Part shown: positions 9,127 through 31,161 of the stretch, piece by piece
Numbering within the stretch: position 1 is the stretch's first letter
Layout of the letters: each line of letters opens with the position of its first letter
NCBI GenBank assembly: GCA_918244965.1
Contig: CAKJYC010000010.1
Span: 1-35,959, forward strand
Source: Clostridiales bacterium
GTDB taxonomy: Bacteria > Bacillota > Clostridia > Christensenellales > CAG-138
Direction of reading: 5' to 3'
Length of the DNA: 35,959 bases
Notes under the pieces: generated by a model
Told to the model about the DNA's origin: nothing
Database searches by the model: none
The model's input: only the letters and a program-made list of their open reading frames with translations
Program-made: the position numbers and the translations under genes

Positions 9127-9990
9127 ATGGATCAGAATCGAGTTCAGCTTTTTGAGGATCAGCCGATCCGAACGGCATGGGATGAAGAACGCGAGGAATG
9201 GTATTTCTCGATCGTTGACGTTATTCGGGTGCTGACGGACAGCCAATCGCCGACAGCGTACTGGCGCAAGCTGAAACAAAGGCTTAAAGAAGAAGGAAAT
9301 GAAACCGTGACAAATTGTCACGCTTTGAAACTGCGTGCGCAGGACGGCAAATATCGCATGACGGACGTTGCCGACACGGCGCAGCTTCTGCGGCTGATCC
9401 AATCCATTCCGTCCAGAAAAGCCGAGCCGTTCAAGCTGTGGCTTGCCGAGGTAGGCAGGGAACGCATTGAGGAGACGATCGACCCGGAGATCACGATCGA
9501 ACGCGCGCTGGAAACGTATGCAAGAAAGGGATATGACGCCGATTGGATCAATCAGCGGCTGCAGACGATCCGCGCGCGGAAGGAACTGACGGACCAATGG
9601 AAGGCACACGGCGTTTCTGAAGGCAGGGAATATGCTCTCCTGACGGATGAAGTGACAAAAGCCTGGGCGGGCATGAGCACGCGGCAGTACAAGAATCTGA
9701 AGGGGTTGAAGAAAGAGAATTTGCGCGACAATATGAGCACGCTGGAGCTTGCCCTGAACATGCTTGCAGAGGCGACGGCAACCGAACTCACAAAGGTGCG
9801 GGACCCGCAGGGCTTTTCGGAGAATCGGCGCGTTGCGCAGGAAGGCGGATCGGTTGCCGGAAGCGCAAGGAAGGATATCGAAGCGCGCACGGGAAAGAGC
9901 GTGATTACATCCGAAAGCGCAAAGCATCTGAAAGACGCTGTGACAGGCATGATAGAGAGCGTAACAGCGGAAGAAACAAAGAAGGAATAA
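9127..9990 (+). CDS. Bro-N domain, DinD-like protein
   Basis: The 287-residue protein begins with a Bro-N-type domain (about 10-110), in which EEWYFSIVDVIRVLTDS is characteristic. RQYKNLKGLKKENLRDNMS and LNMLAEATATELT are typical of chromosomal proteins annotated as DNA-damage-inducible protein D. Bro-N domains bind DNA and are common in phage antirepressors. In E. coli DinD is LexA-regulated and antagonises RecA; whether that applies here is unknown. No LexA-box-like site was recognised upstream. The start at 9127 follows GGGGGA. Codon use is less GC-rich than guaA, which agrees with acquisition from mobile DNA. The gene lies 98 nt after guaA. Confidence 0.8.
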   Translation: MDQNRVQLFEDQPIRTAWDEEREEWYFSIVDVIRVLTDSQSPTAYWRKLKQRLKEEGNETVTNCHALKLRAQDGKYRMTDVADTAQLLRLIQSIPSRKAEPFKLWLAEVGRERIEETIDPEITIERALETYARKGYDADWINQRLQTIRARKELTDQWKAHGVSEGREYALLTDEVTKAWAGMSTRQYKNLKGLKKENLRDNMSTLELALNMLAEATATELTKVRDPQGFSENRRVAQEGGSVAGSARKDIEARTGKSVITSESAKHLKDAVTGMIESVTAEETKKE

Positions 9991-10651: not shown

Positions 10652-10680
10652 TTGCAAAGCGGCGGGATCTGATGTATAAT
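10652..10680 (+). promoter_or_regulatory. Sigma-A promoter of the first YidC-phosphatase fusion
   Basis: TTGCAA (10652-10657) and a consensus TATAAT (10675-10680) are separated by 17 bp. The start codon is 38 bp downstream of the -10 box. Confidence 0.85.
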
Positions 10681-10718: not shown

Positions 10719-13511
10719 ATGGGTTTTCTTCACGCGGTCTACCAACTGCTGATCGGACCGCTGCAGCTGATATATGAATTGATTTACTATTACGCACGCA
10801 TGCTCGCGAAAAGCTGGGGGCTTGCGATCATCGTGCTGAGCCTTGTCGTCAATTTCCTGCTGCTGCCGATGTACCGGCAGGCGGACGCTATTCAGGACAA
10901 GGAGCGCGAGGCGCAGAAGCGCATGGCTCCGTGGGTCAGGCACATCAAAAAGACCTTCTCCGGCAACGAGCGCTTCATGATGCTCCAGACCTATTACCGA
11001 CAGAACAACTATAAGCCGTACTATACGCTGCGCGGACTGCTGCCGCTCGTGCTGGAGATCCCGTTCTTCATGGCGGCGTACCGCTATCTGTCGGGTCTGT
11101 CGGGCCTGCAGGGGATCCCGTTCGGCATCATTTCGGACCTCAGCAAGCCGGATGCGCTTCTGCCGCTGTTCGGGCTTCGCATCAATGTGCTGCCGATCCT
11201 GATGACCGCGATCAACCTCATTTCGGGCGCGATCTACACGAAAGGCCTTCCCTGGAAGGACAAGCTGCAGCTGTACGGCATGGCGGGGCTGTTCCTGATT
11301 GTGCTGTACGATTCTCCGGCGGGACTTGTCGTCTACTGGACGATGAACAACCTGTTCTCGCTGGTCAAGAACATCATCGGCCGGCTGAAGAACCCGCGCC
11401 GGGCGAAGATCATCGTGTTCTCCGGCATCGGCGCGCTGTGCATCCTGCTGATGCTGATCTTCCCGAAGGCCGGCATACAGGACGTCCTGCCGCTTACCGC
11501 CATCGGCCTGCTGTTCCAGGTCCCGCTGCTGCGGTATCTCTGGCAGAAGCGCCCGAACAAAAAGCCGCGTCCCGCAAAGCCGGAAAAGGAATACCGGCCG
11601 CATCTTCTCACATTCCTCTGCGGCGGCGCCGCGCTGACGATCCTGACCGGCATACTGATCCCCTCGTCCGTGATCGCGTCCTCGCCGATCGAGTTCGTCG
11701 ACCTGACGGACTACCGGCATCCGATGATGCACATCCTGTACGCGTTTCTGCTGGCTGCCGGTCTGTTTCTGATCTGGTTCGGCCTGTTCTATTACCTGTC
11801 CGGCAAGAAGGGCCGCGAACGGTTCAGCATGATCGTGTCGATCATGGCTGTCGCTGCGGCGATCAACTACATGTTCTTCGGGACGGACCTCGGCACGCTC
11901 TCCGCGGAACTGAAGTTTGACGAGACGATGCTGCCCCATTTCTGGGAGTGCGTGATCAACACCGGCGTGCTGGCTGCGGTGGGCGTCGGCCTGTGGTTCG
12001 TATTCAAAAAGAGCAAGCATATCGTCGAGATCGCGCTCGCGTCGCTGTGCGTCGCGCTGGTCGGCATGTCGGTCATGAACATCGTCAAGATCCGCCGCGC
12101 CGATGCGGACATTCAGGCCGCGCGCAGAGGCGTGCAGAGCTCCGCCGAAGCGCTTCCTTCCGGCGACGGCAAGCTGATCACGCTCAGCAAAAACAAACAG
12201 AACGTCGTCGTCATCATGCTTGACCGTGCGATCGGCGGCTATGTGCCGTTCATTCTGCAGGAAAAACCGGAGCTTCGGGAGGCCTTCGACGGCTTCACCT
12301 ACTATCCGAACACCCTGTCGTTCGGCGGCAGCACGAACTTCGGCGCGCCCGCGCTGTTCGGCGGCTATGAATACACGCCCGACAACATCAACCGGCGCGA
12401 GACGGAAACGCTTGCCGACAAGCACGACGAGGCGCTGAAGGTGATGCCGGTCCTGTTCGACGAAAACGGCTGCGACGTGACCGTGATCGAGCCGCCGTAT
12501 GCGGGCTACAACTGGGTCCCGGATCTCAGCATCTTCGACGCCTACCCCGATATCCGCACATACAATGTCGAGCAGGGACAGATGTACACTGAGCCGATCG
12601 TCGCAAACACCGCCTCCATGAACGAGCGCTGGGAGCGCAACTTCTTCTGCTACAGCATCATGAAGGCCTCGCCGGTGCTGATCCAGGTCCCGATCTATCT
12701 GGAGGGGACGTACTTTGACTCGAACTCCAGCGTGCAGTACACGGTGGGCCTGTCCGAATCGCACGGCGTCAACGTCGCGTTCATGAACGCCTATTCCGTC
12801 ATGGAAAAGCTGTCCGACCTGACCGCCGCAGCGGAGACGGAGGGGAACACGTTTTTGATGATGAACAACAGCATGACGCATGAGCCGCAGATGCTGCAGA
12901 CGCCGGACTATGTTCCCGCGAACTGGGTGCGCAACGAGGAGTACGACGCGGCGCACGCGGACCGCTTCACGGTCAACGGCTACACGATGGAGATGAAGAC
13001 CTCCGAGCAGATGCGGCACTACCATGCCAACATCTCGGCGCTGCTGCGGCTTGCCGAGTGGTTCGACATGCTGCGGGAGCAGGGCGTGTACGACAACACG
13101 CGCTTCATCATCGTTTCGGATCACGCGCATTTTCTGAAGCAGTTCCCGGAGCTGATCCTCGGCCGCGGCCAGCGCGAGGACATGATGGGCTATAATCCGC
13201 TGCTGATGGTCAAGGACTTTGACAGCACGGGCTTCACGGTCGACGGCACGTTTATGACGAACGCCGACGTGCCGACCATCGCGTTTGCCGGCATCATCGA
13301 AAACCCGACGAACCCGTTCACCGGCAATCCGATCAACAGCGACGCAAAGGCGGGCGAGCAGTACGTCTTCTGCTCCGGCGACTGGGACATCGTCGAGAAC
13401 AACGGCAACACGTTCAAGCCGGGCCTTTGGTACGCGGTGCACGACAGCATCTTCGACCCGGACAACTGGACCAGACTCGGCCGCGGCGTCCTGCCGGAGG
13501 GCGCGGAATAA
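10719..13511 (+). CDS. YidC/Oxa1-like membrane domain fused to an alkaline-phosphatase/LTA-synthase-like domain (copy 1)
   Basis: The 930-residue protein starts with a YidC/Oxa1-type domain (about 1-230): LLIGPLQLIYE, VVNFLLLPMYR, a charged loop, YRQNNYKP, LPLVLEIPFFMAAYRYLSG and SPAGLVVYWTMNNLFSLVK. These follow the order of bacterial insertases. Further membrane helices fill about 230-470. From about 485 an alkaline-phosphatase-superfamily domain follows, with D502 in VVIMLDRAIG, candidate nucleophile T539 in GGSTNFGAP, and D801/H802 in IVSDHAH. This metal-ligand plus threonine layout matches phosphoglycerol and phosphoethanolamine transferases. Expected site: membrane, catalytic domain outside. 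It may insert or scaffold membrane proteins, or transfer a phospho-head group to a surface polymer. It has its own promoter and terminator. A paralogue of identical length lies at 21474. Confidence 0.85.
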   Translation: MGFLHAVYQLLIGPLQLIYELIYYYARMLAKSWGLAIIVLSLVVNFLLLPMYRQADAIQDKEREAQKRMAPWVRHIKKTFSGNERFMMLQTYYRQNNYKPYYTLRGLLPLVLEIPFFMAAYRYLSGLSGLQGIPFGIISDLSKPDALLPLFGLRINVLPILMTAINLISGAIYTKGLPWKDKLQLYGMAGLFLIVLYDSPAGLVVYWTMNNLFSLVKNIIGRLKNPRRAKIIVFSGIGALCILLMLIFPKAGIQDVLPLTAIGLLFQVPLLRYLWQKRPNKKPRPAKPEKEYRPHLLTFLCGGAALTILTGILIPSSVIASSPIEFVDLTDYRHPMMHILYAFLLAAGLFLIWFGLFYYLSGKKGRERFSMIVSIMAVAAAINYMFFGTDLGTLSAELKFDETMLPHFWECVINTGVLAAVGVGLWFVFKKSKHIVEIALASLCVALVGMSVMNIVKIRRADADIQAARRGVQSSAEALPSGDGKLITLSKNKQNVVVIMLDRAIGGYVPFILQEKPELREAFDGFTYYPNTLSFGGSTNFGAPALFGGYEYTPDNINRRETETLADKHDEALKVMPVLFDENGCDVTVIEPPYAGYNWVPDLSIFDAYPDIRTYNVEQGQMYTEPIVANTASMNERWERNFFCYSIMKASPVLIQVPIYLEGTYFDSNSSVQYTVGLSESHGVNVAFMNAYSVMEKLSDLTAAAETEGNTFLMMNNSMTHEPQMLQTPDYVPANWVRNEEYDAAHADRFTVNGYTMEMKTSEQMRHYHANISALLRLAEWFDMLREQGVYDNTRFIIVSDHAHFLKQFPELILGRGQREDMMGYNPLLMVKDFDSTGFTVDGTFMTNADVPTIAFAGIIENPTNPFTGNPINSDAKAGEQYVFCSGDWDIVENNGNTFKPGLWYAVHDSIFDPDNWTRLGRGVLPEGAE

Positions 13512-15900: not shown

Positions 15901-16791
15901 ATGGATCTGACCAGACGGCAGTTTGATCTGCTGGAGACGCTTGCGGAGGCCAAGGGAAGGCTGACGCAGCGCGAGATCTCCGAACGCACGGGACATTCGC
16001 TCGGCGGCGTCAACCGGACGATGCAGGAGCTGAAGGCGCAGGGACTCGTCGACGGGCGGACCGTCACGAAGGCGGGGCTTGACGCGCTGGAGCCGTATCG
16101 CGTGCGCCGCGCGGTGTTCATTGCGGCGGGGTTCGGTTCGCGGCTTGCGCCGATCACGCTGAACACGCCGAAGCCTCTGGTGCGCGTGCACGGCGTGCGC
16201 ATCATCGACACGCTGATCGACGCGTGCCTTGCCGCCGGGATCGGGGAGATCTGGATCGTGCGCGGTTATCTTGCCGAGCAGTTCGATCAGCTGCTGTACA
16301 AGTACCCGATGATCAGATTCCTTGAGAATCCGTTCTTCAACGAGGCGAACAACATTTCGAGCGCGCTCGTTGCGCGGCATCTTCTGAAGAACGCGTACGT
16401 GTTCGAGGCGGACCTGCTTCTGAGCAACCCGGCGGTGATCAAAAAGTATCACTATTCGTCGGAGTTTCTGGCGATCAAAAAGGACCGCACGGACGACTGG
16501 TGCTTCGACGTGAAGGACGGGATCATCACCGAGGAAAAGGTCGGCGGGCTCGACTGCTGGCAGATGGTGGGCATTTCGTACTGGAACGCGGAGGACGGCG
16601 AAAAGCTGTCCGCGGACATTCCGGACGTGTACGCCTCGCCGGGCGGCCGGGAGCGCTACTGGGAGCAGGTCCCGCTGGTGTTCCGCAAGGACCGCTACGC
16701 GGTCGGCGTGTGCCCGTGCTTCGACGAGGACATCGTTGAGATCGACACCTTCCGCGAGCTGAAGGCGATCGACAAGAGCTATAATGTTTGA
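15901..16791 (+). CDS. Winged-helix plus LicC/PntC-like nucleotidyltransferase
   Basis: The 296-residue protein has an N-terminal MarR-like winged-helix domain (about 1-65, RQFDLLETLAEAKGRLTQRE). A nucleotidyltransferase domain follows (about 70-296) with AAGFGSRLAPIT, TPKPLVRVHG, FEADLLLSNP and DDWCF. This set matches CTP:phosphocholine cytidylyltransferase LicC and the related 2-aminoethylphosphonate cytidylyltransferase PntC; sequence alone does not separate them. It would make a CDP-choline- or CMP-phosphonate-type activated head group in the cytoplasm. The winged helix may let the enzyme sense or control its own operon. The ATG at 15901 follows GGGAGAGGACAGG. It starts an operon with the importer genes, and its homologue is fused to the permease at 18744. 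Confidence 0.85.
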   Translation: MDLTRRQFDLLETLAEAKGRLTQREISERTGHSLGGVNRTMQELKAQGLVDGRTVTKAGLDALEPYRVRRAVFIAAGFGSRLAPITLNTPKPLVRVHGVRIIDTLIDACLAAGIGEIWIVRGYLAEQFDQLLYKYPMIRFLENPFFNEANNISSALVARHLLKNAYVFEADLLLSNPAVIKKYHYSSEFLAIKKDRTDDWCFDVKDGIITEEKVGGLDCWQMVGISYWNAEDGEKLSADIPDVYASPGGRERYWEQVPLVFRKDRYAVGVCPCFDEDIVEIDTFRELKAIDKSYNV

Positions 16792-16831: not shown

Positions 16832-17872
16832 ATGAAAAAGACGAAAAAGACTATGATCAGCCTGCTCGCAGCGATGCTCTGCGCAGTGCTTCTTCTGACG
16901 GGCTGCGGCGGCGCCGCGGCAAACAACAGCGGCAGCGCCAAGGCCGACCGCGTCGTGATCTATACGGCGGCGGAGGACGAGCGCATCGCGTATCTCCAGA
17001 CGGAGCTGGACAAACAGTTCCCCGACGTCGAGATCGTCATCCAGTCGCTCGGCACCGGTCAGCTGCTTTCCAAGCTGCAGGCCGAGGGCAAGAACAGCGA
17101 TTGCGACATCTTCTACGATCTGGAGGTCGTCAACGCGGAGATCATCCTGAACGCGTCGCCCGATCTGTTCGCGGACCTGTCCGCGTACGATTTCGGCGTC
17201 TATGATCCGTCCGTTACCGGCTACACCGAGCGGCACCATCAGTATGCCGTCAACGGCAAGACCGCCGGTGCGTTCCTGGTCAACACCAGGGTGCTCGAGG
17301 AGAAGGGTCTGCCCGTTCCCGAATCGTATGAGGACATGCTGAAGCCGGAATACAAGGGCCTGATCTCCATGCCGAGCCCGAAGTCCTCCGGCACGGGCTA
17401 CAGCTACTACAACGGCATGATCACCGTGCTCGGCGAGGAAGCCGGCATGGAATACTTTGCGGCGCTGAACCCGAACATCAAGGAGTACACGACCTCCGGC
17501 TCCGCGCCCGCCAAGGCGGCGGTCCGCGGCGACGTGGCGATCGCATACGGCCTGCTGTGGCAGTGCGTCAACTACGCGAACGAGAACGAGGGCATGACGG
17601 TCGTCGTTCCGGAGCAGGGGCTTGCGTTCGACCTGTTCACGATGGGCATGATCTCCGGCCACGAAACGAAGGAAAGCGTCAAGGCCGTGTTCGATTACCT
17701 GTACAACGTGATCAACAAGCCGCAGTGCGCCAAGTTCAACCCGGACAAGATCTATGCGGACATGCCGGCGGCCGAGATCGCAAACTACCCGACGGGCTAC
17801 AAGGAGATCACCATGAACGGCCTGTTCGATTTCCAGTACAAGCAGAACCTGCTGGATCGGTGGAGCTACTGA
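16832..17872 (+). CDS. ABC importer substrate-binding lipoprotein (iron / 2-aminoethylphosphonate type)
   Basis: The 346-residue protein has a lipoprotein signal ending LLLTGC, with C25 as the lipidated residue, so it sits on the outer face of the membrane. The mature part (VVIYTAAEDERIAYLQTEL, GAFLVNTRVLEEKGLPVPES, GDVAIAYGLLW) belongs to the extracellular binding-protein family of FbpA, IdiA and PhnS. This family takes ferric iron, 2-aminoethylphosphonate, thiamine or similar small ligands. The family's double-tyrosine iron-binding signature is not obvious, which leans away from iron, but this is not decisive. It lies 40 nt after the nucleotidyltransferase gene. A hairpin after it may leave it expressed above the ATPase and permease. 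Confidence 0.88.
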   Translation: MKKTKKTMISLLAAMLCAVLLLTGCGGAAANNSGSAKADRVVIYTAAEDERIAYLQTELDKQFPDVEIVIQSLGTGQLLSKLQAEGKNSDCDIFYDLEVVNAEIILNASPDLFADLSAYDFGVYDPSVTGYTERHHQYAVNGKTAGAFLVNTRVLEEKGLPVPESYEDMLKPEYKGLISMPSPKSSGTGYSYYNGMITVLGEEAGMEYFAALNPNIKEYTTSGSAPAKAAVRGDVAIAYGLLWQCVNYANENEGMTVVVPEQGLAFDLFTMGMISGHETKESVKAVFDYLYNVINKPQCAKFNPDKIYADMPAAEIANYPTGYKEITMNGLFDFQYKQNLLDRWSY

Positions 17873-17930: not shown

Positions 17931-17970
17931 TTCCGGCTTTATTTTGACACACGGAACAACGGAGGAATCT

Positions 17971-18747
17971 ATGGAAAACAACGATGCGGTCATCATCCGC
18001 TGTGAGAACATCTGCAAAAAATTCCGGTCAAAGACGGTGCTGGAGGACGTGTCCTTCACGGTCAACCGCGGGGAGTTTCTGTCGCTGCTCGGCCCGTCCG
18101 GCTGCGGCAAAACGACGATCCTGCGCATGCTGATCGGGATCGAGCATCCGACCAGCGGCAGAATCTTCAAGGACGGCCGGGACATCACCGACGCCGCGCC
18201 GAAGGACCGGAACATCGGGATCGTGTTCCAGAACTATTCGCTGTTCCCGAACATGGACGTGTATCACAACATCTCCTACGCGCTGCAGGCGAAGCACATG
18301 GAGAAGGACGAGATCCACAGAAAGGTCACGGAGATCATCGGGACCGTCGGGCTGGAGGAGCACATCTACAAGAAGCCCAAGCAGCTGTCCGGCGGCCAGC
18401 AGCAGCGCGTGGCGATCGCGCGCACGCTGGTCCTGAACCCCGACATCATCCTGTTCGACGAGCCGATGAGCGCGCTCGACGCCGAGATCAAGGTCGCGCT
18501 GCGCCAGCAGCTTAAGGCGATCCAGAAGAAGCTCAGAATCACGATGATCTACGTCACGCACGACCAGGAGGAGGCGTTTGCGCTGTCCGACCGCATCATG
18601 GTCCTGAACGATCTGAGAATCGCGCAGCTTGACACGCCGTACAATCTGTACCACCATCCCGCCGATCCGTTCGTAAAGCGGTTCGTCGTCGACCACCTGA
18701 ACCTGAAGGTCCGGAGCATCGAGGACAGCATAGGAGCCGACGTATGA
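17971..18747 (+). CDS. ABC importer ATP-binding protein
   Basis: The 258-residue ATPase has Walker A GPSGCGKTT, Q-loop VFQNYSLFP, signature LSGGQQQRVAIAR, Walker B IILFDEPMSALD and the switch histidine in VTHDQEEA. It is of the FbpC/PotA/PhnT type but shorter than most of these (usually 330 to 360 residues), because it lacks the C-terminal TOBE regulatory domain. It would energise uptake with the neighbouring lipoprotein and permease. The ATG at 17971 follows GGAGG; an in-frame ATG at 17944 has no such site. Its stop overlaps the permease start in ATGA, so the two are coupled. Confidence 0.93.
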   Translation: MENNDAVIIRCENICKKFRSKTVLEDVSFTVNRGEFLSLLGPSGCGKTTILRMLIGIEHPTSGRIFKDGRDITDAAPKDRNIGIVFQNYSLFPNMDVYHNISYALQAKHMEKDEIHRKVTEIIGTVGLEEHIYKKPKQLSGGQQQRVAIARTLVLNPDIILFDEPMSALDAEIKVALRQQLKAIQKKLRITMIYVTHDQEEAFALSDRIMVLNDLRIAQLDTPYNLYHHPADPFVKRFVVDHLNLKVRSIEDSIGADV

Positions 18748-21320
18748 AGCCGTTCTTCTCACGCTTCGGCAAATTCTTTCGGCACGAGTATCTGCGCCTG
18801 TTCTCGGTCGGATGCATCCTGCTGTTTGCGATCCTGCCGCTTGTGACGCTGGCCTTCCACATGACGGGGGAGGACTGGGCGTTCGTGCTGCGCGACGACA
18901 GCTTCTGGAGCGCGGTCAAGAACTCGCTGCTCTATACGGCGGTCTCCGCGATCATCACGACGCTGCTCGCGCTGATCGCGGCCTATCTGCTGCACACGTC
19001 GTCGCTTCGGCGAAAGAACCTCTTTGTGATCGCGCTGACGCTCGGCATGCTGGTGCCGACGATCTCGGTCGGGCTCGGACTGCGCGTTCTGTTCGGCACG
19101 AACGGATTTCTGGACATCCTGTTCGGCGCGGAGATCGAGGTGCGCGGCTTTGCCGGGCTTATCATGGGCTCGGTGATGACCTCGTTCCCGGCGACGTTCC
19201 TGATCCTGTACGACGCGCTGCAGTATGAGGACAAGGGCCCGTACGACGCGGCGAGCATCATGGGCATCAAGCGGACCTCGACGTTCTTCCGGCTGACCGT
19301 TCCGTACCTGCGCATCGCGCTGATCTCGGCGTTTTTCGCGTGCTTCACGCTGATCTTCGCCGATTACGGCATCCCAATGGAGATCGCGGGCAAGGTCAAG
19401 ACGCTGCCGATGTACCTGTACGACCAGTTCATGTCCTCGTTCCAGTACGGCCGCGGGAGCATCGCGGGCTTCGTCCTGCTGATCCCGGCGATCGTATCGT
19501 TCGTGTTCGACGTGATCTTCAAGGACCAGAGCGTTACCGAAAAGCAGAAGGCCCTGATCGCGACCGAAAAGCGGTTCAACCGGATCGCCGTCGCGGTCAT
19601 CGCGCTGCTGTGCATCGTGCTGTTTTTGCCGCAGCTGTCGTTCATCGCGCTGTCGTTCACCAAATCGTTCCCGAACGACCTCGGCTTCACCTTTGAGCAC
19701 GTCGCCAACATCTTTTCCAACACCTACGGCGTCGGGCTGACGCGCTATATCCTCAATTCACTGGAGCTTGCGGCGCTGACGGCGCTGACCGGCACCTGCT
19801 TTGCGTACCTGCTCGGCTATCTGTCCGTGCGCAAGACCGGCAGGATGGGCAAGGCGATCGACCTTCTGGCGCTGTCCACGATCGCGATCCCCGGTCTGGT
19901 CCTCGGCATCGGGTTCATCTTTCTGTTCAAGGGGACCAACGGCTCCTTTTACGGGACGATCCTGATCCTGATCGTCGTGAACGTGTTCCACTTCCTCGGC
20001 TCGCCGTACCTGCTGGCGAAGAACTGCCTGAACAAGATCAACAGCGAGTACGAGGTCATCGGCGAAACGCTCGGCATCCGCAAGGGCAAGATCATCCGCA
20101 AGGTGCTGATCCCGTCCTCGGTGTCGACGCTGGTCGAGATGTTCGCGTATTTCTTCCTGAACAGCATGATCACGATCTCGGCCGTGGCGTTTCTGTGCAC
20201 CTACGACAACCAGCCGCTGGCGATCCTGATCACGACGTATGAGAAGAACAGCAACTATGAGATGCAGAGCGTGATCTCGCTGATCATTCTGGTGCTGAAC
20301 ATCCTTGCCCGCCTGCTGTTTGCGGGGATCACGGCGCTGATCAACCGGCGCGGCAGCCGCGAGACGGAGGGCGGCGTCGGCCTCTCGCGCGACGAATTCG
20401 ATTTTCTGACCTATCTCGAACGCAGCGGACGGGGCGTCTATACGCAAAGACGCCTCTCCGACGAGCTGACGATCACGCTGCCGCACACGGCGAAGCTGAT
20501 GAAGGACCTGTCCGATCTCGATTATATCAACGAGATGGGCGACGGCAGCATCGAGATCAGCGAAAAGGGACGAAAGGCGCTTGAGCCGTACCGGGTCCGC
20601 AAGGCGATCATTTTGGCCGCGGGCTTCGGGCAAAGGCTTGCGCCGGTCACGCTCGATACGCCCAAGCCCCTGGTGCGGGTGAACGGCGTCCGCATCATCG
20701 ACACGCTGCTGGACGCGCTGATCCAAAAGGGCATCACGAACATCACGGTCGTCATCGGGTACAAGAAGGAGCAGTTTTACGCGCTGACGGAGAAGTATCC
20801 GACGCTGCACTTCATCGAGAATCCGGAATTCAATCTGGCGAACAACATCGGCTCGGCGGTCCATGCAATCGACCTGATCGACCGCTGCTACATCTGCGAG
20901 GCCGACCTGTACATCAGCAATCCGGACGTGATCAATACGTACGAATACCGGTCCAACTACCTCGGCGCAAAGGTCGCCGAGACAGACGACTGGTGCTTCA
21001 GGAAGCGCAACGGCTGCGTGTACGGCTATCAGCGCGGCGGCACCGACTGCTATCAGGCGTTCGGCATCTCCTACTGGGACGGCGAGGATTCGGAGAAGCT
21101 CAAGGCCGATCTCAGAAAGGTCTACGCGATGCGCGGCGGCAAGGAAAACCTGTGGGAGATGGTCCCGCTGCGCATCATGCGCAAGAACTACCGGCTGGAG
21201 ATCCGCAAATGCAGGAAGTCCGACATCCTTGAGATCGACAACTTCATCGAGCTGACGGCGGCCGATCCGAGCTACGCGAGGTATCCGGGCCACGAGGCCT
21301 TCAGTGGAAAAGGAAAATAA
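18744..21320 (+). CDS. ABC permease (two membrane domains) fused to winged-helix and LicC/PntC-like nucleotidyltransferase
   Basis: The 858-residue protein is a three-part fusion. Residues 1 to about 540 are a double permease of the FbpB/PhnUV type, with two six-helix halves. Each half has an ATPase-coupling loop: YDAASIMGIKRTSTFFRLTV and YEVIGETLGIRKGKIIRKV. Residues about 546-615 are a winged helix (RDEFDFLTYLERSGRGVYTQ). Residues about 618-858 are a nucleotidyltransferase with AAGFGQRLAPVT, TPKPLVRVNG, CEADLYISNP and DDWCF. The C-terminal two parts are homologous along their length to the separate protein at 15901, and the frame is open throughout. Import and CTP-activation of one substrate could thus be physically joined at the cytoplasmic face of the membrane. 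The start overlaps the ATPase stop (ATGA). Confidence 0.9.
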   Translation: MKPFFSRFGKFFRHEYLRLFSVGCILLFAILPLVTLAFHMTGEDWAFVLRDDSFWSAVKNSLLYTAVSAIITTLLALIAAYLLHTSSLRRKNLFVIALTLGMLVPTISVGLGLRVLFGTNGFLDILFGAEIEVRGFAGLIMGSVMTSFPATFLILYDALQYEDKGPYDAASIMGIKRTSTFFRLTVPYLRIALISAFFACFTLIFADYGIPMEIAGKVKTLPMYLYDQFMSSFQYGRGSIAGFVLLIPAIVSFVFDVIFKDQSVTEKQKALIATEKRFNRIAVAVIALLCIVLFLPQLSFIALSFTKSFPNDLGFTFEHVANIFSNTYGVGLTRYILNSLELAALTALTGTCFAYLLGYLSVRKTGRMGKAIDLLALSTIAIPGLVLGIGFIFLFKGTNGSFYGTILILIVVNVFHFLGSPYLLAKNCLNKINSEYEVIGETLGIRKGKIIRKVLIPSSVSTLVEMFAYFFLNSMITISAVAFLCTYDNQPLAILITTYEKNSNYEMQSVISLIILVLNILARLLFAGITALINRRGSRETEGGVGLSRDEFDFLTYLERSGRGVYTQRRLSDELTITLPHTAKLMKDLSDLDYINEMGDGSIEISEKGRKALEPYRVRKAIILAAGFGQRLAPVTLDTPKPLVRVNGVRIIDTLLDALIQKGITNITVVIGYKKEQFYALTEKYPTLHFIENPEFNLANNIGSAVHAIDLIDRCYICEADLYISNPDVINTYEYRSNYLGAKVAETDDWCFRKRNGCVYGYQRGGTDCYQAFGISYWDGEDSEKLKADLRKVYAMRGGKENLWEMVPLRIMRKNYRLEIRKCRKSDILEIDNFIELTAADPSYARYPGHEAFSGKGK

Positions 21321-21331
21321 TACGGCTGCAG

Positions 21332-21362
21332 ATTCCGGGGACGAAAGAATCGTCCCCGGAAT
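21332..21362. terminator. Strong 13-bp hairpin between operons
   Basis: ATTCCGGGGACGA (21332-21344), an AAGAA loop and TCGTCCCCGGAAT (21350-21362) are perfectly complementary. No T-run follows, so termination is uncertain. The hairpin ends exactly where the next promoter begins. Confidence 0.6.
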
Positions 21363-21390
21363 TGACATTCCGGGCGAAACTTGATACAAT
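21362..21390 (+). promoter_or_regulatory. Sigma-A promoter of YidC-phosphatase copy 2
   Basis: A consensus TTGACA (21362-21367) and TACAAT (21385-21390) are separated by 17 bp. Confidence 0.82.
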
Positions 21391-21473
21391 CTTACAGTTA
21401 TCGCCGGATGGACGGCGGAACGGATCGACCGGGGGAGGGGCCGCCTGTACGGACGGCTGCAGGAGAAACGGAT

Positions 21474-24266
21474 ATGACGTTCTGGCATGCACTGTATCAG
21501 CTTTTGATCGGACCGCTCGAACTGCTGTTCGAGGTCATCTTTTCGTTGGCGAGCCATGTGATCCACAGCCCCGGCGCGGTCATCGTGGTTCTGAGCCTTG
21601 CCATGAACATCCTGGTGCTGCCGCTGTACCGGCGCGCGGACGCCATGCAGGCGGAGCAGCGGGACAAGGCGCTTCGCATGAAGCCGTGGGTCGATCACAT
21701 CAAAAAGACCTTCACCGGCGACGAGCGGTTCATGATCCTGCAAACCTATTACCGGCAGGCGGGCTACAAGCCGACCGACGCGCTGAAGGGCTCCGTTTCC
21801 CTGCTTTTGGAGGTCCCGTTCTTCATCGCGGCGTACCGCTTTCTGTCCGGGCTGACGCTGCTTTCGGGCGAGGCGTTCGGGCCGATCCGCGACCTCGGCG
21901 CGCCGGACGGGCTGCTTCAGATCGGCGGGCTTGCGATCAACGTGCTGCCGATCCTGATGACCGCGATCAACATCGTGTCCGCGGCGATCTACATGAAGGG
22001 CTTTCCGCTCAGGAGCAAGCTGCAGACGTACGGCATGGCGCTCGTCTTTTTGGTGCTGCTGTACGGCTCGCCCGCGGGGCTCGTCTTTTACTGGACGCTG
22101 AACAACGTCTTTTCCCTTGTCAAGAACATCTTCTATAAGCTGAAGCATCCGAAGCGCGTGCTGGCGATCCTGTGCGCCGCGATCGGCGCGCTGGGGCTCG
22201 GCTTCGTCCTGTTCGTGCATCCGATGCGCACGCTGCGCCGACAGCTTTTGCTGATCGCCGCGCTGCTCGTGCTGTTCGTGCCGCTTGCGTGGGAGCTGCT
22301 TTCCGGATACCTGCGCAAAAAACGCGCGGCGAAGGGGATCGCGCAAAAGCCCGCGACGGCGCCGGACCGCGCCGAATCGCGCGCGTTCCTGTACGGCTGC
22401 ATCTTTCTCGCGCTTCTGACGGGGCTTCTGATCCCGTCCGCGATCGTGCATGCGTCGCCGGAGGAGTTCATCAACGCGTATGTCTACCGCCATCCGCTCT
22501 GGTATATCGTGAGCGCCATGCTCCTTGCCGTCGGCACGTTCGTGATCTGGTTCGGCATCTTTTACCGCCTGCAGGGACCGAAGGGCAAGCGGATCATGGG
22601 GCTGTCGGTGTGGATCCTGTCCGTGTGCGCGGCGGTAAACTATCTGTTCTTCGGCAAGAGCCACGGCAACCTCTCCGAGATGCTGCAGTACGACGTCTAC
22701 AACGCGCCGTCGCATAAGGAGATGCTGATCAATCTGCTCGTGCTCGCCGCGCTTGCGGCCGTGCTGTGGCTTATCTGGAGGAAAAAGAAGGCGATCGTGC
22801 GCTATGCCGCGCTGACGATGTGCCTTGCGGTCGCGGGGCTCGGCATGTGGAACGTCATACAGATCGGGACGGCGGTCGCGGATGCGACCGGGCGTTACGC
22901 GCAGGAGACCGAGATCCCGGAGATCACGCTGAGCAAGACCGGCAAAAACGTGGTCGTGATCATGCTGGACCGCGCGATCGGCGCGTATGTGCCGTTCTAC
23001 ATGGAGGAAAAGCCGGAGCTCAAGGAAGCGTTCGCGGGCTTTACGTTCTATCCGAACACGCTTGCGTACGGCGGAGCGACGCTCATCGGCGCGCCGCCCA
23101 TCTTCGGCGGCTATGAATACCGGCCCGCAAAGATCCAGGTGCGCGAGGACAAAACGCTGGTCGAAAAGCACGACGAGGCGCTGAAGGTCCTTCCGGTGCT
23201 GTTTTCGCAGAACGGCTATCGCGTCACCTTCAGTGATCCGCCGCTGGCGGGGTACGGCTGGACGCCGGACCTCACGGTGTTCGACGATCATCCGGAGTTC
23301 ACCGTGTTCAACGCGATGGGCAAGCTGACGGAGGACCCCTTCGATCGTGCGGAGGCGATCCATGCGGCGCGTGACCGGAACTTCTTCTGCTACAGCGTCT
23401 ACCGGATCGTGCCGGTGATCGCGCAGTCCACGCTGTACAACCGCGGACAGTACAATGCGCTTTCCCTTGACAGCGGCGGACGAACGGCGGCGGGACAGAA
23501 GCGCGACGGCATTTCCAGGGCAAAGGGACTGTCCGAACCGTTTCTGCAGTCGTACTCGGTGCTGGAAAGCCTGCCGCTGCTGACAAAGACGGTCGACGAA
23601 GGCGACACGCTTCTGCTGATGAGCAACGACCTTACGCACTACGGCAATATCCTGCAGGAGCCGGACTATGAGCCGCTGCTCGCCGTGGACAACACGGAAT
23701 ACGACAAGGCGCATCCGACCCGGACCTCGTGGGACGGAAAGGTGATCCGGCTGACCACGCTGAGCCACGTGCTGCATTACCACGCGGGCATGGCCGCGCT
23801 GCTCCGCCTCGGCGACTGGATGGACTATCTGCGCGAGCAAGGTCTCTACGACAACACGCGCATCATCCTCGTGTCGGACCACGGACATGTGCAGGACAAT
23901 TTCGAGGACGCGTGGTTCGGCGAAGAGGATTGGGAGAACGTTCTGCGATTCAACGCGCTGCTGATGGTGAAGGATTTCGACAGCAGGACGTTCACGGTCG
24001 ATCCGCAGTTCATGACGCACGCCGACGTGCCGACGCTCGCGCTGCGCGGGCTGATCGAAAACCCGGTCAATCCGTTTACGGGGAACCCGATCGACGACGC
24101 GGGCAAGAACGATCCGGTGCAGTACATCCGGCAGACCGGACCGACGAACGTTCCCGGCATCAAGAACCGGTACCGGTTCGACGGGCTGTGGGTCCGCTTT
24201 GAGGGACACGAGCTTTTCGACATCAGCAAATGGAAGACGCTCGGCGAAGCGCTGCCGGCGGAATAA
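21474..24266 (+). CDS. YidC/Oxa1-like membrane domain fused to an alkaline-phosphatase/LTA-synthase-like domain (copy 2)
   Basis: This is a 930-residue paralogue of the protein at 10719, with the same order of domains. The YidC-like part (about 1-230) has LLIGPLELLFEV, SLAMNILVLPLYR, LEVPFFIAAYRFLSG and SPAGLVFYWTLNNVFSLVK. More membrane helices follow, then the phosphatase-fold domain from about 480. Key residues are conserved: D499 in VVIMLDRAIG, T536 in GGATLIGAP, and D802/H803 in LVSDHGH. The flanking GGYEYxP motif is shared too. Expected site: membrane, with the catalytic domain outside. The ATG at 21474 aligns with the start of copy 1 and has AGGAG upstream; an in-frame ATG at 21381 lies within the promoter. 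The CDP-glycerol transferase-like gene starts 12 nt later. Confidence 0.85.
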   Translation: MTFWHALYQLLIGPLELLFEVIFSLASHVIHSPGAVIVVLSLAMNILVLPLYRRADAMQAEQRDKALRMKPWVDHIKKTFTGDERFMILQTYYRQAGYKPTDALKGSVSLLLEVPFFIAAYRFLSGLTLLSGEAFGPIRDLGAPDGLLQIGGLAINVLPILMTAINIVSAAIYMKGFPLRSKLQTYGMALVFLVLLYGSPAGLVFYWTLNNVFSLVKNIFYKLKHPKRVLAILCAAIGALGLGFVLFVHPMRTLRRQLLLIAALLVLFVPLAWELLSGYLRKKRAAKGIAQKPATAPDRAESRAFLYGCIFLALLTGLLIPSAIVHASPEEFINAYVYRHPLWYIVSAMLLAVGTFVIWFGIFYRLQGPKGKRIMGLSVWILSVCAAVNYLFFGKSHGNLSEMLQYDVYNAPSHKEMLINLLVLAALAAVLWLIWRKKKAIVRYAALTMCLAVAGLGMWNVIQIGTAVADATGRYAQETEIPEITLSKTGKNVVVIMLDRAIGAYVPFYMEEKPELKEAFAGFTFYPNTLAYGGATLIGAPPIFGGYEYRPAKIQVREDKTLVEKHDEALKVLPVLFSQNGYRVTFSDPPLAGYGWTPDLTVFDDHPEFTVFNAMGKLTEDPFDRAEAIHAARDRNFFCYSVYRIVPVIAQSTLYNRGQYNALSLDSGGRTAAGQKRDGISRAKGLSEPFLQSYSVLESLPLLTKTVDEGDTLLLMSNDLTHYGNILQEPDYEPLLAVDNTEYDKAHPTRTSWDGKVIRLTTLSHVLHYHAGMAALLRLGDWMDYLREQGLYDNTRIILVSDHGHVQDNFEDAWFGEEDWENVLRFNALLMVKDFDSRTFTVDPQFMTHADVPTLALRGLIENPVNPFTGNPIDDAGKNDPVQYIRQTGPTNVPGIKNRYRFDGLWVRFEGHELFDISKWKTLGEALPAE

Positions 24267-24278
24267 GGAGGACGAAGA

Positions 24279-25571
24279 ATGCGGCTTTATATCGACCCCG
24301 GCACGGGGAGCATGCTGTTTACGATCCTGGTCGGCCTTTTGGGCACCGGGGTGTTTGCGTTCCGCAAGCTGTTCATCAAGCTGCGGTTCTATCTGTCCGG
24401 CGGCAGGCAGAAAAAGGACGCCGAAAAGCAGCCGATCGCGATCTTTTCGGACAGCAAGCGCTACTGGAACGTCTTTGAGTCCGTGTGCGACGAGCTGGAG
24501 CGCCGCGGCCGCGACGCCGTCTATCTCACCGCGTCGGAGGACGATCCCGCGCTCAAAAAGCAGTATGAACACATCCGCGCGGAATTCATCGGCAGCAGCA
24601 ACAAGGGCTTTGCGCGGCTGAACATGCTGAAGGCGGACGTGCTGCTGTCCACGACGCCGGGCCTCGACGTGTATCAGTGGAAGCGCTCGCGCGACGTCAA
24701 GTGGTACGTGCATCTGCCGCACATGTCGAACGACATCACGCTGTACCGCATGTTCGGGCTCGACTATTACGACGCGATCCTGCTGTCCGGCCCGTATCAG
24801 GAGCAGCAGATCCGCGCGCTGGAACGCGTCCGCAGCCTTCCCGAAAAGGAGCTGAAGCTTGTCGGCATGACGTACATGGACGCCATGAAGGCGCGGCTCG
24901 ACAGCGCGGAGCCGATCCCGGCGCACCCGACGACCGTGCTGCTCGCCCCGTCGTGGGGGCCGAGCGCGATCCTTTCGCGCTACGGCGGCCGGATCATCGA
25001 CGCGCTCTTAAAAACCGGCTATCACGTGATCGTTCGTCCGCATCCGCAGTCCTTTACGTCCGAAAAGGACATGCTCGACGCGCTGATGCGGCAGTACCCG
25101 GACAGCGAACAGCTCGAATGGAACCGCGACAACGACAACTTCGACGTGCTGCGCAAGGCGGACATTCTGATCTCCGACTTTTCGGGCGTCATCTTCGACT
25201 TCGCGCTCGTGTTCGACAAGCCGATCCTGTACGCGGACACGTCGTTTGACAAATCCCCCTACGACGCGTTCTGGCTCGACGACGAGCTGTGGACATTCAA
25301 AACGCTTCCGAAGATCGGCGAACAGCTGTCCGAGGAGAAGCTCGACCGGCTGAAGGAGATCATCGACGACTGTCTCTCGGCGCCGGAACGGCAGGAGGCC
25401 AGAGACGCCGCAAGAGCCGAGGCCTGGGCCTATCCGGGCGAAGCGGCAAAGCGCGTTGCGGATTATCTGATCGAAAAGCAGGACGCGATCCTGAAGGCCG
25501 AGGCCGAAGCGGCGCAGAAGCCGGAAAAGACCCGCAGACCGAAGAAGGAGAAGAAGGCGAAGCCCGCATAA
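24279..25571 (+). CDS. CDP-glycerol glycerophosphotransferase family protein (TagB/TagF-like)
   Basis: The 430-residue protein opens with YIDPGTGSMLFTILVG, a membrane-associated N-terminus shared with other surface-polymer proteins. The transferase domain follows (about 60-385). VIVRPHPQS and the C-terminal LISDFSGVIFDFALVFDKP match the HP and S-D-x-S-x-x-x-x-D-F nucleotide-binding motifs of TagB/TagF enzymes, which add glycerol phosphate from CDP-glycerol. Other CDP-linked donors are possible, which fits the nucleotidyltransferases nearby. It ends in a lysine- and alanine-rich tail (KTRRPKKEKKAKPA) that may bind membrane phospholipid. The RBS is GGAGG. It is cotranscribed with YidC-phosphatase copy 2. 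Confidence 0.87.
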   Translation: MRLYIDPGTGSMLFTILVGLLGTGVFAFRKLFIKLRFYLSGGRQKKDAEKQPIAIFSDSKRYWNVFESVCDELERRGRDAVYLTASEDDPALKKQYEHIRAEFIGSSNKGFARLNMLKADVLLSTTPGLDVYQWKRSRDVKWYVHLPHMSNDITLYRMFGLDYYDAILLSGPYQEQQIRALERVRSLPEKELKLVGMTYMDAMKARLDSAEPIPAHPTTVLLAPSWGPSAILSRYGGRIIDALLKTGYHVIVRPHPQSFTSEKDMLDALMRQYPDSEQLEWNRDNDNFDVLRKADILISDFSGVIFDFALVFDKPILYADTSFDKSPYDAFWLDDELWTFKTLPKIGEQLSEEKLDRLKEIIDDCLSAPERQEARDAARAEAWAYPGEAAKRVADYLIEKQDAILKAEAEAAQKPEKTRRPKKEKKAKPA

Positions 25572-25583
25572 CCGCAATACAAG

Positions 25584-25612
25584 GCACGGACAGCAGACGT
25601 CCGTGCTTTTTT
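25584..25612 (+). terminator. Intrinsic terminator after the CDP-glycerol transferase gene
   Basis: GCACGGAC (25584-25591), a seven-base loop and GTCCGTGC (25599-25606) form a perfect 8-bp stem followed by six T residues. Confidence 0.9.
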
Positions 25613-25683: not shown

Positions 25684-28600
25684 ATGAAAAAAAGACTTTT
25701 ATCCGCATGCATGGCGATCCTGCTTCTTCTGACGGTGCAGGTGTTCGGCGGGCCTGCCCGCGCGGAGGACGGGAACGGCGCTGCGCCGCTCGATCCGAAG
25801 ACCCTGCGCGTCGAACGGCTCGGCGTGTCGGACGAACCGTCTGCGCCCGCGGAGGAGGCCGCGCCGTTTGGCCCGGACGAGCCTGTGCGCGTCACGATCG
25901 TTTTGGAGGGGAAGTCCGCAAGCGAAAGGGGCTTCGACCTGCGCTCTCCGGCAGGCAGGCGCGCGGCGGCGGATTGCCGCACCCGCCTGAAAAACGAACA
26001 GCAGGCGCTGACCGCGCGGATCGAAAAGGCGGTCGGGCACAGACTGAACGTCAAGTGGAACCTGACGCTGCTTCTGAACGCGATCTCGGTCGAGCTTCCG
26101 TACCGCGACGTCGCACGCATCGAGCGGATGAAGGGCGTGCGTTCCGTCGAGCTTGAAACGCAGTATGCGCCTCCGTGCGACGCCGAACCCGCGCAGCCGG
26201 ATTCCGCGGCGACCGTGAACATGATCGGCGCATCTTCGGCGTGGGACCTCGGCTATACCGGCGCGGGCTCGCGGATCGCGATCATCGACACCGGCATCGA
26301 CACCGAACACCAGTCGTTCGACGCGGCGGGATTCGAGTACGGGCTGAATGAGACCGCGCAGGAGACGGGCAGGACCTATACGCTGATGACGAACGCTTTT
26401 CCGACCGGGCTTAACGTTCCCGGCGTATATGTAAGCTCCAAGATCCCGTTTGCATACAATTACATCGATCACAACACGACGGTCGACCACCTGAGCGACA
26501 CGATGGGCGACCACGGCTCGCACGTCGCCGGCATTGCGGCGGCGAACCGCTATGTTCCGTACAACGGCGGATACGGACTGTGCGCACCGCTCTACAAGGC
26601 CGTGGGCATGGCGCCGGACGCGCAGCTCTGCATCATGAAGGTGTTCGGCGCGGCGGGCGGCGCGTACGATTCGGACTATATGGCGGCGATCGAGGACGCG
26701 CTCGCGCTCGGCTGCGACGCGTGCAACCTGTCGCTCGGTTCGTCCGAGCAGGGCTTCACATACGACAACGTCTATCAGACCGTGCTGAACCGGCTCTCGG
26801 ACCCGACCGAGAATCCGTGGATGGTCGTGGCGATCGCCGCAGGCAATTCCTATGCGCTGACGGACCGTATGGAAGGTTCCGTCGGCACGAACGGCCTGTA
26901 CGCCGGGGACGTCGGCCTGCATACCGGCGGCGCTCCCGGCACGTATGTCAACAGCCTGTGCGTGGCCTCGTCCGGCAAGGCGTCTGTCGGACAGACCGAA
27001 ACCGCCGCGATCTCGAACTTCAGCTCGTGGGGCGTTCCCGGTTCGCTTCTGATGAAGCCGGAGATCACCGCGCCGGGCGGCAGCATTCTGTCCGTCTACG
27101 GCAGGTACAACAGCGGCTCCGGCATGCTGGGCGGCCCGAACAAGTATACCCGCATGTCCGGCACGTCGATGGCCACGCCGCACATTTCGGGGCTTGCGGC
27201 GATCCTTGCGCAGTATTTCCGCGAGAATCCGATCGGCAATTCCGCGCTGACGCAGCGCTGTTCCGTGCGCGCGATCGTCCAGAGCCTTCTGATGAGCACG
27301 GCGACGCCGCTTGTGACCTCCTCCGGCGAATACCGGCCGATCCTGCAGCAGGGCGCAGGCCTTGCCGACGCCGAGAAGGCGATCTCCGCATCGTCTGTCG
27401 TCATGATGGATCCGCAGCATTCGTATCTGACGGGGCTTACCGGCGCGGCTGCGGACGGCAAGGTGAAGGTTGAACTCGGCGACGATCCGGCCCGCACCGG
27501 CGTCTATACCTATCGCTTCGATCTGTTCAACCTCTCGGATCATGCGCTGGACTTTACCTTTGACACCGACCTGTTCACGCAGGACGTCGCACAGCAATCC
27601 GACGGCCTGCACCTGTGCAAGACGACGCGCAGCATCCGCGCGGCGGCAGCATACACGGTCGCGATCGACGGCATTTCCGTACAGGTCGGCGCGCAAGGCA
27701 CGGATCTGACGCCGGACAGCGTTGAGACGGCGGCCGTGCCTGCGTTCGGCAAAGCGACCGTGACGGTACAGATCACGCTGAACCCGGACGATCTTGACGC
27801 TGTCCGCTGTCCGAACGGCGCGTACATCGAGGGCTTTACCTATGCGCGATGCGGCACGGAAGGGTCCGCGCACACGCATTCGATCCCGATCCTCGGCTTT
27901 TACGGCAGCTGGACCGATCCTTCGATGTTCGACGCGGCGTCCTATCTCGACGGCCTGTATCCGGAAAACGGCACGGCGAAGGCCTCGTATACCGGCAATC
28001 CGGACACCAATTATCTGCGCGTCACGCAGAACGGCGAAACGGTCCGGTTCTCCGGCAATCCGTATGCGGTCGAGAACGCGTTCCCCGCGGACCGGCTTGC
28101 GATCCGCAGCGATACGGTCCTGACGGACGTCGTATACAGCCTGTACCGCGCGGCGGGCACGACCGCGTTCGCGGTGACGAGAACGGACGGGATCGGCGGC
28201 GACAACATCGCGGTCCCGTATGCGTCCGGCCTCGGCAACAACGTCGAGGGCATCTATTACGATTCGCAGGAGGGCTGGCAAAACCTTTCTCCGAAGACGT
28301 ACACCATCAACAAAACCGCCGCGCAGATGGGCTTTTCGGAGGGCGACACGCTGTGCGCGGGCTTTTACGCGGTGCCCGAATACTATGCCATGACGCAGAA
28401 ACAGTCCTATACGGCGGCGGATTCCGGCCGACTCGACCTGAACGGCTTCCGTGCGCTGCTGCTCTCGAACCGCCTCGGACGCGGCGCATTCGTGGGCTGT
28501 GATTTCACGGTGGACGATACCGCGCCGGTGATCGAAGCCCCGTCGTTTTCCGGGAGCACGCTGACGTTTTCCGCAAGCGACGACCGGCATCTTGCCTATG

Positions 28601-29691: not shown

Positions 29692-29709
29692 TCCGCAGGG
29701 GGGAGAATT

Positions 29710-31158: not shown

Positions 31159-31161
31159 GAC

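Follow-up and report, generated by a model that had tools for sequence, protein, structure and literature searches.

Genes and features of the window

Two long genes encoding proteins that combine a YidC/Oxa1-like domain with a membrane phosphotransferase were found in the window, i.e., the whole analyzed DNA stretch of 35,959 nucleotides. The first gene (copy 1) starts with ATG, is preceded by a purine-rich stretch resembling a ribosome-binding site, and encodes a protein of 930 aa (P0001). The features of both genes and of the region between them are as follows; the promoter and terminator scans performed near chance level, the number of promoter sites being only slightly above chance.

10652–10680, forward strand: possible sigma-70 promoter before copy 1, TTGCAA-17-TATAAT (promoter scan)
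10719–13511, forward strand: YidC-5TM-AP fusion, copy 1 (ORF, Pfam/NCBIfam domains, AlphaFold2 (AF2) model)
10719–11393, forward strand: YidC/Oxa1-like domain, residues 1–225 (Pfam/NCBIfam, 4utq alignment, Foldseek)
11394–11546, forward strand: two-helix hairpin linker, residues 226–276 (AF2 model; positive-inside loops)
11598–12149, forward strand: five-helix membrane region of the phosphotransferase module, residues 294–477 (AF2 model; homology to stand-alone 5TM-AP proteins)
12168–13508, forward strand: extracytoplasmic alkaline-phosphatase (AP)-superfamily domain, residues 484–930 (Sulfatase match, invariant residues, AF2 model, fold matches)
12222–12224, 12333–12335, 12879–12881 and 13119–13124, forward strand: codons of D502, T539, H721 and D801-H802 of copy 1 (invariant in the alignment)
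15901–16791, forward strand: winged helix and nucleotidyltransferase, likely a cytidylyltransferase (PF00483/PF12804, PF12802)
16832–17872, forward strand: PhnS2-like solute-binding protein (TIGR03261, E 3e-51, under the equivalog cut-off)
17944–18747, forward strand: ABC ATPase of the importer (PF00005)
18744–21320, forward strand: PhnU2-like double permease fused to winged helix and nucleotidyltransferase (TIGR03262, E 1.6e-91, under the equivalog cut-off; PF00483)
21362–21390, forward strand: possible promoter before copy 2, TTGACA-17-TACAAT, extended -10 (promoter scan)
21474–24266, forward strand: YidC-5TM-AP fusion, copy 2 (P0005), 930 aa, 50% identical to copy 1 (domain scan, sequence comparison)
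24279–25571, forward strand: CDP-glycerol glycerophosphotransferase-like protein (GPT), 12 nt after copy 2, with a GGAGG site (PF04464, E 2.3e-11)
24288–24320, forward strand: YIDPGTGSMLF membrane anchor of GPT
25581–25609, forward strand: terminator-like stem after GPT, 11 pairs with a T tail (terminator scan)

In the copy 1 protein, residues 33–220 match the Pfam family 60KD_IMP (PF02096; E 9.5e-25, above the cut-off), and residues 32–220 match the NCBIfam family yidC_oxa1_cterm (TIGR03592; 91.3 bits against a cut-off of 84.3). Together with the YidC-folded AF2 model, these matches agree with the initial annotation, in which residues 1–230 were described as insertase-like. The match of residues 494–808 with the Sulfatase family (PF00884) is weak and lies under the cut-off (E 6.7e-4). 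The genome encodes three 60KD_IMP proteins, namely, copies 1 and 2 and, encoded on a different contig, a 424 aa housekeeping YidC.

The fusion is confirmed. It is not a product of chance, since more than 80 loci of independent assemblies encode full-length homologues built in the same way, and a paralogue lies at 21474–24266. The window assembly is fragmented (95 contigs), which might point to an artefact of gene prediction or assembly; this explanation, of negligible probability, is refuted by the same full-length frame in the above loci, isolates included, and by a continuous and confident AF2 model.

Shortly upstream of copy 1, beside a GNAT acetyltransferase gene, lies a gene encoding a phage-type BRO-N domain protein (9127–9990). 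No GPT gene directly adjoins copy 1 in the window, and LicD was not seen among the window genes scanned. The protein encoded at 18744–21320 carries DNA-binding, transport and activation domains on a single chain, while 15901–16791 encodes a second winged-helix nucleotidyltransferase. By E-value, the importer shows strong matches to PhnS2 and PhnU2, yet both lie under the equivalog cut-offs, so any substrate assigned to the importer is a guess. Directly downstream of the copy 2-GPT operon, the region 25684–31158 encodes a large secreted subtilase (S8) and a PGA_cap capsule-type protein. Long ORFs on the reverse strand (25699–31236 and 19758–24926; 1845 and 1722 aa) lie opposite real genes and were taken as high-GC artefacts. 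The plasmid search gave no match.

A second phosphonate system, of a known kind, is located on contig C62 of the same genome (G000; L176, 5411–13194). This polysaccharide cluster encodes a LicD-like protein, whose motif was recognized by eye, as well as phosphonopyruvate decarboxylase, a fusion of nucleotidyltransferase with PEP mutase and a soluble protein resembling sulfatases. The phosphonopyruvate decarboxylase of the genome thus sits apart from the fusion, and because of this separate cluster the 2-aminoethylphosphonate (AEP) genes of the genome need not serve the fusion.

Predicted fold, catalytic residues and groove

The AF2 model of the copy 1 protein was built with an alignment of 115 full-length relatives (pLDDT 91.8, pTM 0.88); a model from eight sequences was poor (pLDDT 54) and was set aside. 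In the model, YidC-like helices with a long C1 hairpin (residues 1–221) are followed by two helices (226–276), five helices (296–460) and the AP domain (484–930). According to the Foldseek analysis, the N-terminal part has the fold of YidC, the C1 hairpin and the five core helices included, and is similar to YidC of E. coli (6al2; rmsd 3.6, 215 columns) and of B. halodurans (3wo7; TM-score 0.68 on the target). Loop charges evaluated by the positive-inside rule place the region after the YidC domain and the 276–296 loop inside the cell and the AP domain outside. Since the model contains YidC, the hairpin and a further five helices, the fusion is a YidC module added to a complete 5TM-AP enzyme. 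The earlier proposal that a YidC domain takes the place of the five membrane helices therefore has to be abandoned.

For the AP part, Foldseek found matches with MCR-1, PbgA, EptA, LtaS/LtaP and phosphonate monoester hydrolases. VIA-align of residues 492–930 gave Z of approximately 19–21 with LtaS, PbgA, EptC and phosphonate monoester hydrolase. The individual values were 21.3 for 4uph (rmsd 4.0, 327 aligned), 20.1 for PbgA 6xlp (rmsd 3.7, 287 aligned), 19.8 for EptC (rmsd 3.5, 277 aligned) and 19.3 for LtaP/LtaS 4uop (rmsd 4.1, 306 aligned), with a range of 18.8–19.3 for LtaS-type structures. The phosphoethanolamine transferases EptA/EptC and MCR-1, as well as PbgA/YejM, share the 5TM and AP architecture with the fusion; they differ from it in the Gram-positive context and the partner genes of the latter, and no match at the sequence level was found.

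Each of the 115 relatives has D502, T539, H721, D801 and H802, and R503 is R or K throughout. The catalytic set named in the initial annotation (D502, T539, D801, H802) was therefore numbered correctly, and H721 joins it as the remaining member of a conserved D-T-H-D-H set. In the model, D502 follows the first strand (495–501), T539 opens the helix 539–548, and D801-H802 follow the strand 794–799. These are the usual positions in the AP superfamily. The predicted closeness of the catalytic residues is upheld as far as their position in the fold goes, the measure by which it was judged.

As in LtaS-type synthases, five helices precede an extracytoplasmic AP domain with a Thr nucleophile and a D-H pair. 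However, the first metal ligand of LtaS is Glu, whereas the fusion has Asp (D502) in 115/115 sequences; moreover, the fusion has the added YidC domain and hairpin and pairs with a cytosolic GPT.

The residue N45 (codon 10851–10853) aligns without gaps with R366 of the E. coli YidC groove in the 4utq alignment. Among the 115 relatives this position is occupied by N (110), S (3) or Q (2), and never by a basic residue. W207, which takes the place of E. coli Y517 in the same alignment, is invariant (115/115), as are the groove-facing residues Y206 and S41. The stand-alone YidC of the same genome has Lys near the place of the groove Arg (read by eye). Judging from the alignment, the groove of the fusion family is altered and then held fixed. 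Thus, the fusion shares with YidC/Oxa1 insertases a domain above curated cut-offs, the five core helices with the C1 hairpin and the fold match to E. coli YidC, and differs from them in the replaced groove Arg, the attached phosphotransferase and its presence in addition to the housekeeping YidC.

Distribution, gene neighbours and rearranged modules

A scan of the whole GTDB with the family alignment revealed 491 stretches encoding a relative of the query, not all of them necessarily fusions; the locus counts below (n = 78) are from the best 80 of these stretches. The 78 loci belong mainly to Clostridia (Lachnospiraceae, Oscillospiraceae and unclassified rumen MAGs), with Erysipelotrichaceae, Negativicutes (Schwartzia) and one Chloroflexi-labelled MAG among the other carriers. 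Butyrivibrio, Schwartzia and Clostridium punense isolates are included. The fusion family is widespread in gut and rumen bacteria, mostly Bacillota. Its occurrence is patchy: it was found in 5/151 near relatives, 12/391 genomes of the class and 3/398 genomes of a phylum sample, the window genome being counted in each. When 291 genomes of the class were searched with the AP half, all 23 strong matches lay in frames of 847–966 aa, long enough for the fusion, and no stand-alone protein was found among them.

Two of the loci have unusual surroundings. In one (L040, 1–20820), a tandem expansion places five full-length fusion genes and one GPT gene within approximately 20 kb of a single contig. In the other (L051, 3877–7542), a gene for a large secreted protein with WYYL choline-binding-type repeats lies directly upstream of GPT and the fusion.

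Neighbouring genes were counted using tblastn, because antisense ORFs masked GPT in some loci under ORF calling. A GPT (PF04464) gene is present in 73/78 loci, and two of the five loci lacking it are contigs under 6 kb. The fusion and GPT genes are typically adjacent, with median gaps of 1–6 nt and many 4-nt overlaps, as in coupled genes. The N-terminus of GPT (LYIDPGTGSMLF) ranks second of 396 windows by conservation. Its anchor YIDPGTGSMLF was found in 64/69 GPT proteins, with a conservation of 93% versus 70% in the rest of GPT. The partner GPT belongs by its PF04464 match with the TagF/TarL CDP-glycerol/CDP-ribitol polymerases, and it shows weak matches with TagF-like Cps3D and TarL. It differs from them in its single small domain, the YIDPGTG anchor and its location beside CDP-choline/CMP-AEP genes.

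Lic genes (choline kinase LicA, LicB-like EamA transporter, LicC-like) occur in 19/78 loci, Pnt genes (PEP mutase, phosphonopyruvate decarboxylase, PhnW) in 13/78 and a nucleotidyltransferase alone in 9/78, which gives 41/78 overall and 23/36 for loci longer than 20 kb; in 37/78 loci, some of them on short contigs, no such genes were detected within reach. Phosphonopyruvate decarboxylase was found in 11/148 sampled genomes of the class and in 5/5 of those genomes taken to carry the fusion (Fisher p 8e-7, assuming that all 148 genomes are included in the 391 screened for the fusion). The supply and activation genes beside the fusion are thus the same as in the Lic (phosphocholine) and Pnt (aminoethylphosphonate) pathways (PntC: PMC6697681). 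The known final transferase of these pathways is LicD-like; the pair described here consists of the PF04464 GPT and the YidC-containing membrane phosphotransferase.

In four genomes among 391 (G347, G284, G472 and G379), the YidC-like domain was found fused to GPT. The corresponding regions are as follows:

L142, 5067–8695; L173, 3781–8180; L175, 6556–13260: YidC-Glyphos_transf fusions with separate 5TM-AP genes
L174, 6944–11998: YidC-Glyphos_transf fusion with an AEP synthesis operon

In three of the four genomes a separate 5TM-AP gene adjoins the YidC-GPT gene or lies within approximately 3 kb of it. In G347 (contig C57), reached through a weak partial match in the search with the AP half, a stand-alone 5TM-AP gene is followed after 68 nt by a gene for a 634 aa protein composed of 60KD_IMP (23–212) and Glyphos_transf (277–542). 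In G284, the YidC-GPT gene overlaps the 5TM-AP gene by 4 nt, and the protein encoded by the latter starts with a YIDPSV-type membrane segment; hence, both here and in the common architecture, the YIDP-type segment is on the partner that lacks YidC. In G472, the distance between the two genes is approximately 2.2 kb. In G379, the YidC-GPT gene heads an operon for AEP synthesis and activation, the next genes being those for phosphonopyruvate decarboxylase, nucleotidyltransferase and PEP mutase. Since both YidC-AP and YidC-GPT fusions exist, each of the two enzymes can carry the YidC module. In the best tree, the YidC parts of YidC-AP and YidC-GPT proteins are apart; as a single clade is compatible with the data (AU p 0.11), two independent captures of YidC are not claimed.

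When stand-alone 5TM-AP proteins from the same taxonomic family (G024 and G048) were compared with the AP half, 457 columns aligned (hhalign probability 98.6%, E 5e-16), and their D, T, H, D and H residues are in register with those of the fusion, judging by the alignment. A nucleotidyltransferase-aminotransferase gene is near the 5TM-AP gene in G024 as well as in G048. The hhalign probability with four LtaS-like membrane sulfatases of related genomes was 12%, which is not significant, and the comparison with single E. coli OpgB and YejM sequences gave only fragments. By sequence comparison, the fusion is closer to unnamed stand-alone five-helix AP proteins than to LTA-synthase-like ones, and the close link with LTA synthase suggested initially is not supported.

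Proposed function and alternatives

The data suggest recruitment of YidC into the assembly or export of a surface polymer decorated with phosphate or phosphonate. Slightly favoured, with a probability of about 0.55, is the reading that the fusion represents half of a dedicated two-gene, three-module machine placing groups of the phosphocholine or AEP type on an envelope lipid or polymer. The donor, CDP-choline, CMP-AEP or one of similar type, would be made from nearby supply genes, represented in the window by the PhnSTU2-like importer and two nucleotidyltransferase domains. The cytosolic membrane-anchored GPT would transfer the CMP-activated group to an acceptor bound to the membrane. The YidC-like part, spanning the membrane beside GPT, would dock the YIDPGTG anchor and may lead the product along a hydrophilic, thinned path to the outer side of the membrane. 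There, the five-helix AP part would transfer or polymerize the group via T539, with the metal held by D502, D801 and H802. Phosphocholine, AEP and glycerol phosphate are candidates for the moved group. The substrate, the acceptor, the direction of transfer and the use of the YidC-like part as a docking site or conduit are those that we infer.

Folds of the YidC type thin the membrane around a hydrophilic groove. Being joined to either enzyme, the YidC-like module is a natural candidate for docking and for the passage of a lipid-linked product. Passage appears plausible given such a membrane-thinning groove and the scrambling of lipids in vitro by purified E. coli YidC (PMC10491306), a protein that has the groove Arg absent from the fusion. 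The change of role proposed in the initial annotation, from general protein insertion to another function, is likely because the genome has a housekeeping YidC besides the fusions, none of the aligned relatives has the groove Arg and the module occurs on two fusion partners of one pathway. The more specific idea that YidC was converted from an insertase into the transmembrane conduit of a phospho- or phosphono-polymer machine, joined to the cytosolic or the external transferase, is tentative and on balance somewhat doubtful.

The main rival, though an unlikely one, is a dedicated insertase or chaperone for the YIDPGTG anchor of GPT and/or for the protein's own AP helices, which would move neither lipid nor polymer. 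The fact that the YidC part has kept its fold, including all five core helices and the cytoplasmic C1 hairpin, is consistent with it, as are the position of the GPT anchor among the most conserved GPT windows and the arrangement in G284, where YidC is on GPT and the YIDP-type anchor on the other protein. Against it are the loss of the groove Arg, the presence of a housekeeping YidC, the stable 1:1 fusion, which would be an odd design for an insertase, and the existence of stand-alone 5TM-AP proteins without a YidC fusion of their own (L126, L129 and L138). Loss of a functionally important groove residue and the ability of the YidC part to be fused to either enzyme could also indicate a mere membrane scaffold, holding the enzyme and its partner without any transport or insertion activity. 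This is improbable in view of the strictly conserved groove-facing positions (N45 in 110/115, W207 in 115/115, Y206 and S41), which are not drifting and thus suggest that a groove function is kept.

Another explanation concerns the AP chemistry and is compatible with each of the above readings of the YidC part. It is that the enzyme is LTA-synthase-like and makes poly(glycerol phosphate) from phosphatidylglycerol, with subsequent decoration by the choline or phosphonate neighbours. The LtaS-like topology, the fold match to 4uop, the lack of a canonical membrane LtaS among the proteins found in the window genome and the MBOAT (DltB-like) genes in four loci speak for it. Nevertheless, it is rather unlikely, considering the Asp in place of the Glu metal ligand, the non-significant hhalign result and the equally good AP matches to PbgA, EptC and phosphonate monoester hydrolase. 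We return to the two-gene machine as the preferred reading.

Neither the YidC-AP nor the YidC-GPT fusion was found to be reported in the literature searched, which is a part of the whole. The parts of the proposed machine are known families, and its kind is surface decoration with phosphocholine or phosphonate; there is a real chance that the export principle is new. YidC/Oxa1 proteins are known as insertases; there are also reports, from in vitro work and from simulations, that they scramble lipids. A widespread natural fusion in which a YidC fold lacking its groove Arg is tied to two phosphotransferases of the same pathway would be direct genetic evidence that this fold can serve lipid or polymer chemistry. 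If the conduit reading is true, synthesis inside, passage and transfer outside would be combined in one complex, and this would be a new kind of envelope-polymer export, distinct from ABC, Wzx/MOP and LtaA-type flippases. Cultured carriers such as Butyrivibrio make the fusion testable. Phosphocholine and phosphonates are recognized by immune receptors. For the missing last steps in the display of these molecules by gut and rumen Bacillota, the system described here offers a concrete candidate.
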